64,000 nt of DNA from Nitrospira sp. (GTDB taxonomy: Bacteria; Nitrospirota; Nitrospiria; Nitrospirales; Nitrospiraceae), in contig VGXF01000001.1 in NCBI GenBank assembly GCA_016873435.1, positions 1 through 64,000 on the forward strand. The letters are read 5' to 3'. Position numbers and translations under genes: made by a program. Under the pieces are notes generated by a model. That model saw nothing but the letters and a program-made list of their open reading frames with translations, was not told where the DNA came from and did not search any database. Below, in pieces: positions 46,675 to 54,029 of the stretch (position 1 is its first letter; each line of letters starts with the position of its first letter).

Positions 46675-47415
46675 TCACTTGTCACCCCAAGCCTTACGCA
46701 GATTCAGGAGCAGCCGCTTGGACGCATCCTCCATAGAAATGACCCGGAGCGTATTCGGCGCCCCTTCAAACGTGGGCGGCCAGTAGCGGCGGTTCGGCTC
46801 CATTGGCCGCAGCCAGACCACTGGGTACCACTGGTTGATCCCCGGTGCCATCGGACGGTCCAGCGTCGCCCAGCCGCGCCCTTCGGCCCGGACCAGCGTC
46901 TGCCCGGCCTTCACGTCCACCAACGCCGCCTCCAAGAGGGAATAGTTGTCGCGGCGTAGCCCCGGCTGCATGTGCGCCGCCCAGCCGAGAAAGAGGGTCT
47001 GCGGATATTCCACTTCCGTAGCCGAGGCCACGACAACAATCAGATACTCCACCCCCTGCTTGCGTCCGAATTCGGCGAACTGATCCGGGTCACCACCGGA
47101 GACCGGACGCAGCCCTTCGGCAGGAACGATTTTCGCAATGGTAATTGGAAGGGTCTGCTTGAGTTCCTCCGACAGACTCTCTGCCAACCGCTGGATGGCT
47201 TCATCCGGAAGGACCGGCGAGGCCTCCGGCGCGGAGGTGTCGGGAATCACGACAAGACCCGCCTGGATGCCCTGCGGTGACAGATCAGCCGTCACAGCCG
47301 TGCCCTTCGGTGTGCCGACATAATCCGCGATACGGTTCGGTGGCATCCCGGTCGTGCACGCGGTCAGCAACAAGACCCCCAGTACGCAACCGGCTTGTGT
47401 CCTGAGATAACGCAT
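46675..47415 (-). CDS. Hypothetical lipoprotein
   Basis: This 246-residue precursor has the lipobox LLTAC after MRYLRTQAGCVLGVLLL. The mature part contains AIQRLAESLSEELKQTLPITIAKIVPAEGL and a YLIVVVASATEVEYPQTLFLGWAAHM segment, with no recognised catalytic motif. It may be an outer-membrane lipoprotein. It precedes htrA by about 220 nt on the same strand. That gap contains the candidate htrA promoter, so it may be transcribed separately. Confidence 0.75.
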   Translation of the reverse strand: MRYLRTQAGCVLGVLLLTACTTGMPPNRIADYVGTPKGTAVTADLSPQGIQAGLVVIPDTSAPEASPVLPDEAIQRLAESLSEELKQTLPITIAKIVPAEGLRPVSGGDPDQFAEFGRKQGVEYLIVVVASATEVEYPQTLFLGWAAHMQPGLRRDNYSLLEAALVDVKAGQTLVRAEGRGWATLDRPMAPGINQWYPVVWLRPMEPNRRYWPPTFEGAPNTLRVISMEDASKRLLLNLRKAWGDK

Positions 47416-49843: not shown

Positions 49844-51556
49844 TCACGCTTCACGGCCTCTCCCCACTAGCAGATTCCCCAGCACCAGCCAGTCGACTTG
49901 CGTGCGACGGAAACACTGGATCGCCTCTTCAGGTGTGCAGACGATCGGCTCCCGGACATTAAAGGAGGTGTTCAGCAGCACCGGCACGCCGGTTTGCTTC
50001 GCGAAGGCCTCCAGCAGCGCGCGGAACCGGGGGTTTGACTGCTTGTCGACGGTTTGTACGCGCGCCGTCTCGTCCACGTGCGTCACGGCCGGCAACACGC
50101 CCTTGGCCTCCGGCCGCACCCGGTGTGTGAACTGCATAAACGGCGATGGTCTAGCGATGTCGAAATACTCAGCGGCCCGCTCCTCCAGCACCGCTGGCGC
50201 AAACGGCCGAAAGGGCTCGCGGAATTTCACCTTGGCATTGATCAGCTCGCGCATGTCTTCGCGGCGCGGATCAGCCAGCAGGCTCCGGTTGCCCAGCGCG
50301 CGCGGCCCCCACTCCATGCGATCCTGAAACCAAAAGACGAGCCGGCCGTTTGCCAATTCCCCCGCCATCCGTCTGATCAACGCATCATCCGTCAGTCGTT
50401 GCCAGGACAACCCGGCCTCAGCCAGGGCATGGCGGCAATGGTCCTCAGAAAAGGCCGGCCCCCAATAGGCATGAGACATCGGCTCGTGCGTCGTCGACCC
50501 GCCACGCCGCGCCGTCCACCAGAGCGCCGCGCCCAGCGCCGCGCCCGAATCGCCAGCCGCCGGCTGCACGTAGACCTGCGAAAACCCGCTGTCGGACCTC
50601 AGGCGGCTGTTGGCGACGCAATTGAAGGCGACGCCGCCGGCCAGACAGAGCGCCTCCATGCCTGTGAGCTTCTTAAGATGTCGCGCCAAATGCAGCAACG
50701 TTTCTTCCAATACCCGTTGCGCGCTGGCCGCCACGTCGCGGTGTCGCTGCTGAATCTCCTCAGTCACAACGCGATGGGGGCCAACCAAACGTTCGAACGC
50801 CAGCGAAAACAGTCCGGCCCGGGCCAAGTGAAAGTCGAGCAGCCGCGTGTTGAACCAAAACTGTCCGTCGGGCTTCACGCCAAGAACTTGTTCGCGCAGC
50901 ACGTTGGCAAAGCGCGGCTCGCCGGAGGCCGCCAGCCCCATGACGATGTATTCGTCCTGATCCGGCGTGAAGCCGAGAAAGGCCGTGATCGCGGCGTAAA
51001 ACTGTCCGAGCGAATGGGGCAACGCCGTCCGCTGCAACATCCGCATCTGTTGCCCCTCCCCGGCCAGTAGCGTGGTCGTGTGGGCCTCAGAGGCGCCGTC
51101 GACGATCAGAATTGCCGCCCGTTCAAAGGGCGAAACGAGAAAGGCGCTGGCCGCGTGGCAGAGATGATGATCCAGAAAGACCGGGTCGTAGCGACCGGGC
51201 CCGAAGTACCGCTGGAGATGCCGCGGGAGAAACGCCAGCTCTGCCCATTCCTGCCACAAACGCTCCGCGCTGCGACGGCCCTTCACGCTGAAGAGCGCCG
51301 GCGAACGAAGCATCGCGCCCAGCGCCAGCCGCGCTCGCCGGCCGACCTGCCAGTATTTCCACGGCACGGCAATCGCGTCCACGTCTGCCAAATGCACGCC
51401 GGCATGATCCAGACACCACTGCATAGCATGGACTGGCAGTGCGGTAACGTGTTTGATGCGGACAAACCGCTCTTCCTCGGCTGCGGCCACCACACGCCCG
51501 TTCTGCACGAGCGCCGCCGCCGCATCGCGCATGTTGGAAAGACCCAGAACCAGCAT
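49844..51556 (-). CDS. NodU/CmcH family carbamoyltransferase
   Basis: This enzyme family transfers carbamoyl groups to sugars or antibiotics. The 570-residue protein has the N-terminal ASKHA-like part (GLSNMRDAAAALV, AAAEEERFVRIKH, DHHLCHAASAF). CLAGGVAFNCVANSRL follows. The C-terminal catalytic domain has MEWGPRALGNRSLLADPR and FRPFAPAVL. It lies next to a membrane protein and a glycosyltransferase, suggesting modification of a surface glycan. Confidence 0.92.
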   Translation of the reverse strand: MLVLGLSNMRDAAAALVQNGRVVAAAEEERFVRIKHVTALPVHAMQWCLDHAGVHLADVDAIAVPWKYWQVGRRARLALGAMLRSPALFSVKGRRSAERLWQEWAELAFLPRHLQRYFGPGRYDPVFLDHHLCHAASAFLVSPFERAAILIVDGASEAHTTTLLAGEGQQMRMLQRTALPHSLGQFYAAITAFLGFTPDQDEYIVMGLAASGEPRFANVLREQVLGVKPDGQFWFNTRLLDFHLARAGLFSLAFERLVGPHRVVTEEIQQRHRDVAASAQRVLEETLLHLARHLKKLTGMEALCLAGGVAFNCVANSRLRSDSGFSQVYVQPAAGDSGAALGAALWWTARRGGSTTHEPMSHAYWGPAFSEDHCRHALAEAGLSWQRLTDDALIRRMAGELANGRLVFWFQDRMEWGPRALGNRSLLADPRREDMRELINAKVKFREPFRPFAPAVLEERAAEYFDIARPSPFMQFTHRVRPEAKGVLPAVTHVDETARVQTVDKQSNPRFRALLEAFAKQTGVPVLLNTSFNVREPIVCTPEEAIQCFRRTQVDWLVLGNLLVGRGREA

Positions 51557-51699: not shown

Positions 51700-53496
51700 G
51701 TGCATCGTTGGATACTGCGCCCCCTGCCATCTGTTTCGGCCCTGGTCCTCCTGCTAACCCTTTTGACAGCTGGCTGCGCCAAAATTGGGTGGACGCGCGC
51801 GGCCTTGCCGGACATGGGACCGAAACTGCCAATGACGGCCGCCCTGACGTTGGACCCGTCCTTGACATCGACCGAGTTCACCTACACAGACAACTGCGGG
51901 CGTCCAAATATTCCGGTGGCGCTGGGGCAGATACTGGAATCGGCATTGACTGACGCCGCCGATCAAACGTTCAAAACGGTCGAGCTGCCCGGCAAAAAAC
52001 CATCTGGCGTACCCGCCGACGTTTCCATCCACGTGGTCCTGGAACAACAGGGCTTCAAGGTCAACCAGGAGGCCCTGTACGACCGCGTCCCGGCCGAGCT
52101 GGTGCTCGAAGCCGTGGCCCTGTTCCGCGACCCATCCGGCAAGGTCCTAGGGGAAATTCCGCTCAAAGTCACGCACCGCGACCGCGTCTATCTCGAAGTC
52201 ACGCAAAAACGCTGCGATTATCTGATGGAGCCGTTTGCCAGCGGCGCTGCCGTAAGTCTGGCCACGCTCTTTGCTAGGGCCTCGCGGGACGTGATGGATC
52301 CGGCCAGCCGCGCAGCAGCCGCGGGGGCAGGCCCATCGGGAACGGCATCCGCACTGGTATTCAAAGCCACACTGCTTGATGAAAACAGCGACGGTTTTCT
52401 CGAACGCGGCGAACGCGTCAAGGTGCGCGTGGATCTGACTAACTCCGGCACAGTACCTGTGACGGGCGTGAACGTGACATTAAACGGCCTACCTGCCCTG
52501 CTCTCAGGTTTTTCGTCTACCACCCTCTCGGCGGGAGGCCTCCAGCCGGGCGAATCCCGTTCGGTGGAATTTGCCGCCACGATACCGCAGGCGCTGGAAA
52601 GCCAGAAAGCAGAACTGACTGTGGCCGTCAGCGCAGCGACCGGATCAAGTGCGCCGCTCTCGCAGGCTCTGACAGCGTCTGTGCGCAGCGGTGCGGCACG
52701 GTTCGACTCCATCGACCAGATTCCGGCCGGCACAGGCTTGCAGCGTCCGCACACCTACGTTCTGGCTGTCGGCGTCAGCAGTTATCGCGATCCGCAACTG
52801 GCTGCGCGCAAATATTCGTCGCTGGACGCGGAACTGACGGCCGCTTATTTTCAGGCAGTGGGCGGTGTGCCGCTCGCCAACATCAAGCTGCTCCAGGACT
52901 GGAAAGCGCTCCGCCCCGATATCGAAGACACGATTCTGGAATGGCTGCCGAAGCGGCTGTCCTCCGACTCGGTCGTGATCGTGTACTTCTCGGGGCATGC
53001 CGCCGTCTCACCGAGCGGCGAAACTTATCTCGTCCCCTATGACGGCAAGGCCAACTCAACGGCACGACTTTACCCGCTCAAGGATCTGGAGGCGGGACTC
53101 GTCCGGCTCAAAGCCAAACAGACGATCTTCATTTTCGATGGGGGTATCCTACCGATCGGGCCGGCCGGTTCCAAGGCGCGTGGGCCGCAGTGGAGCGGGA
53201 CCAAGAGCCCGGTCCTGCACCTCATCGGCGCGGCCGGCTTACAGAGCGGGCTTGAGCCCCCAAAACTGCGCCACGGCCTCTTCACCTATTATTTGCTGCG
53301 CGGACTCAAAGGCGAGGCGGATACCAACTTGGATGGGGACATCACATTGGGTGAACTGACGGCCTTTGTTGGACGGACGGTCCCCGCCGTGGCCCGGCAA
53401 GAGTTCAATCAGGAGCAGCACCCGTTGTTTGTCCCACCCCTGCCGTTGTCGAGCGCCGCCGCCGGGCTGGTGTTGTCGAAGTCGGCCACACGGTAA
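51700..53496 (+). CDS. Caspase-fold (peptidase C14-like) lipoprotein lacking the catalytic cysteine
   Basis: The start is a GTG with AGAGG 5-6 nt upstream, giving 598 residues. A signal peptide with lipobox LTAG/C26 is followed by a lipoprotein-like domain. A CARDB/Ig-like region with DENSDGFLERGE, a Ca-binding-like motif, comes next. The C-terminal caspase-like domain has TYVLAVGVSSYRD and the catalytic His433 in VYFSGHA. The position that should be D-A-C is D480-G-G482, so the nucleophile is absent. A second Ca-type motif DTNLDGDITLGE sits near the end. It is best read as a non-proteolytic pseudo-caspase. Confidence 0.88.
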   Translation: MHRWILRPLPSVSALVLLLTLLTAGCAKIGWTRAALPDMGPKLPMTAALTLDPSLTSTEFTYTDNCGRPNIPVALGQILESALTDAADQTFKTVELPGKKPSGVPADVSIHVVLEQQGFKVNQEALYDRVPAELVLEAVALFRDPSGKVLGEIPLKVTHRDRVYLEVTQKRCDYLMEPFASGAAVSLATLFARASRDVMDPASRAAAAGAGPSGTASALVFKATLLDENSDGFLERGERVKVRVDLTNSGTVPVTGVNVTLNGLPALLSGFSSTTLSAGGLQPGESRSVEFAATIPQALESQKAELTVAVSAATGSSAPLSQALTASVRSGAARFDSIDQIPAGTGLQRPHTYVLAVGVSSYRDPQLAARKYSSLDAELTAAYFQAVGGVPLANIKLLQDWKALRPDIEDTILEWLPKRLSSDSVVIVYFSGHAAVSPSGETYLVPYDGKANSTARLYPLKDLEAGLVRLKAKQTIFIFDGGILPIGPAGSKARGPQWSGTKSPVLHLIGAAGLQSGLEPPKLRHGLFTYYLLRGLKGEADTNLDGDITLGELTAFVGRTVPAVARQEFNQEQHPLFVPPLPLSSAAAGLVLSKSATR

Positions 53497-53573: not shown

Positions 53574-54029
53574 CTACTCGTCGCCGCCCTTTTTGCAGAA
53601 GCTCCGCTCGTAGTTGATCACCTGCCAGGCTTCCTCTTCGCTGATCGTGCCCGGCGTGAGCGACACCATGCCGGTGCCCGGGCTGCCGTTCTTGATGACC
53701 CAGAACAACTCGCCGTCCTTCCGCTTCTTGTGGAACTTACAGTTCGTGAAGTTCCGCGGGCTCGGGTTGAGGATCGCGCCGGCCGGGCCGTTGCCCTCGC
53801 CAGTCTTTCCGTGGCAGTTATAGCAGGTGCCCTTGCCTTCGAAAATCGCCTTCCCCTTGGCGATGTTCTCCGGAGTCGCGGCAACCGGGTTCTTCATCGC
53901 CTTCGCATCACCGATCGCATCCGCTGGCACGCGCGCCTTGAGAGGATCCCTCTCCTCAGCCACAGCGGCGGTCGCCGTGACAAACATGAGTGCGGTCACC
54001 AGACCGACTGCCTTGAGATAACCCATCAC
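53574..54029 (-). CDS. Monohaem cytochrome c, periplasmic
   Basis: This 151-residue precursor has a signal peptide ending at AVAEE. The class I cytochrome c domain has the single haem site CYNCH and ligand methionine candidates in NGSPGTGMVS. A C-terminal VINYERSFCKK contains an extra cysteine. AAGGAGGAG precedes the start, and a strong promoter lies at 54118-54147. It likely carries electrons in the periplasm. Confidence 0.9.
   Translation of the reverse strand: MMGYLKAVGLVTALMFVTATAAVAEERDPLKARVPADAIGDAKAMKNPVAATPENIAKGKAIFEGKGTCYNCHGKTGEGNGPAGAILNPSPRNFTNCKFHKKRKDGELFWVIKNGSPGTGMVSLTPGTISEEEAWQVINYERSFCKKGGDE

Follow-up and report, generated by a model that had tools for sequence, protein, structure and literature searches.

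The window, a 64,000-nucleotide stretch of a Nitrospira sp. contig, contains a gene for a predicted lipoprotein composed of an N-terminal domain, an Ig-like domain and a C-terminal domain that resembles a caspase but has no catalytic cysteine (Table 1). A preliminary description had located its open reading frame, lipobox, H433, D480-G481-G482 and both Asp/Asn-rich loops, and these positions are exact in the sequence. Around the gene the locus is conserved, with genes for HtrA, a glycosyltransferase, a RodZ-like protein, PfkB, MTAP, MiaA and MutL. The preliminary description also drew attention to the carbamoyltransferase gene next door. The neighbor is indeed present in the window, but only 28 of the 49 syntenic loci have it in the adjacent position. 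It is divergent and lies on the other strand, and is therefore not an operon partner; we rejected a functional link. Elsewhere in the window, positions 46675-47415 (- strand) encode a 246-aa lipoprotein with a weak rhombotarget lipoprotein match below the cut-off and no Pfam family.

Table 1. Features of the pseudocaspase locus in the window.
Feature	Position	Strand	Remarks
Lipoprotein pseudocaspase gene	51700..53496	+	GTG start, 598 aa; full-length relatives exist
Signal peptide and lipobox LTAG-C26	51700..51777	+	Lipidated Cys codon 51775-51777; read from sequence
N-terminal domain, residues 31-205	51790..52314	+	Outer-membrane lipoprotein fold, DUF330/CsgG/LptE/PelC/TolB-N type
Ig-like beta-sandwich, NPCBM_assoc/NEW3 type, approx. 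residues 218-335	52351..52704	+	Pfam and model strands
Calcium-type loop DENSDGFLERGE, residues 227-238	52378..52413	+	D227, N229, E235, G237 and E238 invariant
Pseudocaspase domain, residues 347-594	52738..53481	+	PF00656 and structural alignments
H433 (YFSGHA), catalytic-His position	52996..52998	+	Gln or Leu in most relatives
D480-G481-G482	53137..53145	+	D-S-C in active paralogues
Second calcium-type loop DTNLDGDITLGE, residues 541-552	53320..53355	+	Active paralogues have one too
NodU-type carbamoyltransferase	49844..51556	-	Divergent neighbor
c-type cytochrome	53574..54029	-	Convergent neighbor

The signal peptide ends in a canonical lipobox (LTAGC), and the cysteine predicted to be lipidated, C26, is kept in all 79 relatives that cover the position. 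The residue that follows it varies among relatives (E 40, V 14, D 13, A 7, T 4, Q 1), and because of this mixture sorting to the inner membrane, the outer membrane or the surface cannot be read from it. Of the label "surface lipoprotein" given to this protein previously, the predicted lipid anchor thus stands, and the surface location is no more than a possibility. C66 and C172, both in the N-terminal domain, are invariant among relatives and probably form a disulfide.

Modeled alone with AlphaFold2, the N-terminal domain reached a pLDDT of 89.7 and gave 44 Foldseek matches at E <= 0.001, with LptE, CsgG and similar lipoproteins foremost. VIA Z-scores were 11.9 for the DUF330 protein XCC0632, 10.9 for CsgG, about 9.5 for LptE and 9.1 for both PelC and TolB. 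The modeled domain has the common alpha/beta fold of the outer-membrane lipoprotein superfamily (LptE/CsgG/DUF330/TolB-N); since identities are about 10%, it is a fold held in common with outer-membrane and periplasmic lipoproteins and does not place the domain in any single named family. The same genome encodes a stand-alone lipoprotein (C1:193806-194438; L072:407-1039) with the same N-terminal domain and both of its cysteines; a UbiA-like gene and c-type cytochromes lie nearby. The Ig-like domain that follows in the window protein matches Pfam PF10633 (29.5 bits, residues 235-310), and the motifs of the two Asp/Asn-rich loops suggest that they may bind calcium.

The C-terminal domain has the caspase fold. 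Residues 354-576 match PF00656 at 26.3 bits against a Pfam cut-off of 21.4. In an AlphaFold2 model of the window protein built from 76 sequences (mean pLDDT 86.9), residues 347-594 align by VIA with Arabidopsis metacaspase 4 (6w8r; Z 21.3, 214 residues, rmsd 2.8), MALT1 (3uo8; Z 21.1) and GSU0716 of Geobacter (3bij; Z 20.4). The alignment, over residues 351-597, spans the whole fold, including the p10-like part. A sequence search for the closest solved structure returned no match. Family profile and fold together place the domain among the Peptidase C14/caspase-fold proteins, and the comparison with metacaspases that the preliminary description had proposed yields a confident assignment.

A profile-guided scan of named genomes gathered at least 80 relatives, where a single-sequence scan had given none. 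All come from Nitrospira or Nitrospirae/Nitrospiraceae records (one labeled Nitrosospira), N. defluvii and N. moscoviensis among them, and the three-domain architecture is common to the 80 Nitrospira/Nitrospiraceae relatives. A search for viral relatives found none. A copy of clade A is present in about 32 of the 37 family genomes searched, mostly as one copy per genome; some species have a second paralogue, which could share the pseudocaspase role.

Across this family the catalytic site is gone. In 80 aligned domains, the window's included, the cysteine column holds I 20, T 19, M 17, A 9, S 5, G 3, V 3, N 2, K 1 and L 1, and never C, in agreement with the earlier reading that the window protein, with G482, lacks a catalytic cysteine. 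That reading would have to give way to a cysteine placed elsewhere in the active site, and there is none: the window's caspase domain has no cysteine, and among the 80 aligned domains the relatives are likewise devoid of it apart from one interrupted sequence (L143). We rejected a displaced catalytic cysteine on these grounds, and a displaced nucleophile is impossible because the only cysteines of the mature protein are C26, C66 and C172. The histidine has fared little better. Described initially as a dyad partner that had been kept, it occurs in 3 of the 80 domains, the remainder having Q (48), L (26) or V (3), and so is not a conserved trait. By parsimony on the relatives' tree, rooted at its midpoint, H433 sits inside a Gln clade, which makes regain likelier than retention; H433 of the window protein was thus probably regained.

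These columns bear on whether the protein could still be an enzyme in which Ser or Thr at position 482, or the invariant Asp480 and His525, performs the chemistry. D480 and H525 are nearly invariant and some relatives do have S or T at 482, but both residues are also invariant in active paralogues and are therefore probably structural. Moreover, many relatives have I, M, A, G, V or L at position 482, and with Q or L in place of the histidine no consistent nucleophile-base pair is left; we consider residual catalysis highly improbable. Active Nitrospirota paralogues have 69 invariant columns, of which the pseudocaspases keep 34, mostly in the core; they have lost the catalytic pair and the loop that follows the cysteine (SCFSGxGGRS in the active paralogues). 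The pseudocaspase head has invariant residues of its own, W498, H525, E552 and Q573.

The head is under purifying selection. By the rough NG86 method, dN/dS in 24 close pairs was 0.07-0.24 for the pseudocaspase domain and mostly 0.05-0.35 for the N-terminal and Ig-like domains. With dN/dS low and the relatives intact, we rejected a recent pseudogene. The caspase fold might instead be structural filler, a stalk end kept for stability while the N-terminal domain does the work, as the lone N-domain lipoprotein encoded in the same genome and the sequence drift of the former active-site loop would allow. However, conservation of the head equals or exceeds that of the N-terminal domain, its dN/dS is similar and it possesses its own set of invariant residues, and we regard a filler role as unlikely.

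Inactive caspase homologues can also act through active ones. The faces through which caspases dimerize are known to serve in regulation, and the protein could, like c-FLIP, hold or trigger an active caspase by pairing with it in the same cell. Many relatives do encode active His-Cys paralogues, and a single genome can have as many as about 18 caspase-fold matches. The preliminary description raised such a role and called for a genome search, which went against it. Profile searches of the window's genome (G000, 98.5% complete) detected two caspase folds, both Cys-less, and found no active caspase partner and no CHAT-type protease partner. The second protein (C8:76922-78268; L053:923-2272) has a signal peptide, a caspase-like domain and then TPR repeats; its histidine is kept (GHTG) and Asp-Gly-Gly stands in place of the cysteine motif. 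Orthologues of this TPR pseudocaspase, found in most family genomes, have the histidine in 21 of 21 cases and lack the cysteine in 21 of 21. In four related genomes that are 99-100% complete (G002, G005, G017 and G024), a search for active caspases likewise found only Cys-less ones; the gene persists there without a partner. A c-FLIP-like role is therefore not general, and for the window protein we judge it improbable. In a Baikal Nitrospiraceae genome (G023), no more than about 1.3 kb separates an active paralogue from the pseudocaspase (C13:129898-130743 and C13:132003-133745; L004, L069, L094).

Where did the dead caspase come from? The same three-domain arrangement extends through most of the length of the pseudocaspases in clades B (Arg-Ser/Thr), F2 and F3 of the same order, and a lipobox is present in most of those from clades B and F3. 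All 48 Cys-less sequences (A, B, F2 and F3) are separated from 36 His-Cys sequences by one branch with an SH-aLRT of 99, in an unrooted tree built by a quick method that is open to long-branch effects and that, like the second tree, was made without the TPR clade. Taking out the active-site columns leaves the split unchanged. The simplest reading is that the dyad was lost once, long ago, in Nitrospirales, though a quick, unrooted tree falls short of proving it. Lipoproteins of other Nitrospirota families that have one or two Ig-like domains retain an intact GHG and DSC (L272-L276), and because of these intact Ig-caspase lipoproteins the window protein seems to descend, in inactivated form, from a live architecture of this kind. 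We tentatively envision a scenario, which we hold to be somewhat less probable than its opposite, in which a lipid-anchored Ig-caspase protease gave rise, through one ancient loss of the dyad, to envelope receptors with a dead caspase (clade A, clade B and two other groups) whose function is unrelated to proteolysis or photosynthesis. L272-L276 and further intact-dyad loci appear to be membrane-anchored live orthocaspases.

We favor a model in which the window protein is a true pseudoenzyme: an envelope lipoprotein whose non-cleaving caspase-fold head is kept by purifying selection as a binding module (probability about 0.72). Its most likely function is that of an envelope-tethered binding or scaffold protein; binding rather than cutting is probable because the protein has been retained although it lost its site for cleavage long ago. 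By this model, the N-terminal domain, whose fold occurs in lipoproteins that dock into outer-membrane or periplasmic complexes, would tether the protein to a partner in the envelope. The Ig-like domain could serve as a calcium-stiffened spacer, and the caspase fold may bind a protein or peptide at its dimer face or in what was once its substrate groove.

Bacterial caspase homologues with substituted dyads are documented, and in 2012 Nitrospirae stood out, with only 57% of dyads intact (Asplund-Samuelsson 2012, PMC3501461). The preliminary description called the protein unusual, which holds in part only, as dyad-less homologues were already on record in that study. Pseudo-orthocaspases, His-Gly dyads included, have been described mainly for phototrophs and tied mainly to photosynthesis (Klemencic 2019, PMC6426788); Nitrospira is absent from the main text of that paper. 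The window protein, a prokaryotic p20-like domain with a substituted dyad, falls within the definition given there. Like other bacterial pseudo-orthocaspases it can occur in a genome that has no other kind of caspase homologue, and its His-Gly dyad is also reported in those of Synechococcus PCC 7502/7335. In contrast to them, it is a lipoprotein with an N-terminal domain of the outer-membrane lipoprotein fold and an Ig-like domain ahead of the caspase fold, and its family belongs to nitrite oxidizers, with a dyad that is mostly Gln or Leu plus a variable residue. A knock-out of the Synechocystis pseudo-orthocaspase SyOC (Tyr-Gly) has an oxidative-stress phenotype (PMC7889975), which by analogy may be a precedent for a working dead caspase.

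Other proteins resemble it in part. The L272-L276 lipoproteins have a lipobox, Ig-like domain(s) with a motif of the D-x-N-x-N..E-x-G-E type and a C-terminal caspase, but retain the dyad, have a different N-terminal domain and sometimes have two Ig domains. The active orthocaspase paralogues of Nitrospira (L054-L071) are about 33-39% identical in the caspase domain and have the same second calcium-type loop, whereas their catalytic His and Cys are intact and the N-terminal domain is unaligned in most. The MALT1 paracaspase and type II metacaspases (3uo8, 6w8r) share the fold (Z 21), and MALT1 also combines Ig and caspase domains, but these are active eukaryotic enzymes with 14-18% identity and a different domain order. 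c-FLIP is likewise an inactive caspase homologue, but acts on a partner caspase of a kind not found in the window's genome. We found no description of the Nitrospira lipoprotein family in the openly licensed literature. Because pseudo-orthocaspases are already known, it is a new non-photosynthetic lipoprotein variant of them and not a new kind.

Near-complete genomes carry the pseudocaspase without a detectable active caspase, and since intact-dyad sister proteins occur in the same phylum, the loss of catalysis can be studied by direct comparison. That nitrite oxidizers have such a lipid-anchored family, conserved and syntenic, suggests a non-proteolytic job for the caspase fold in the bacterial envelope.
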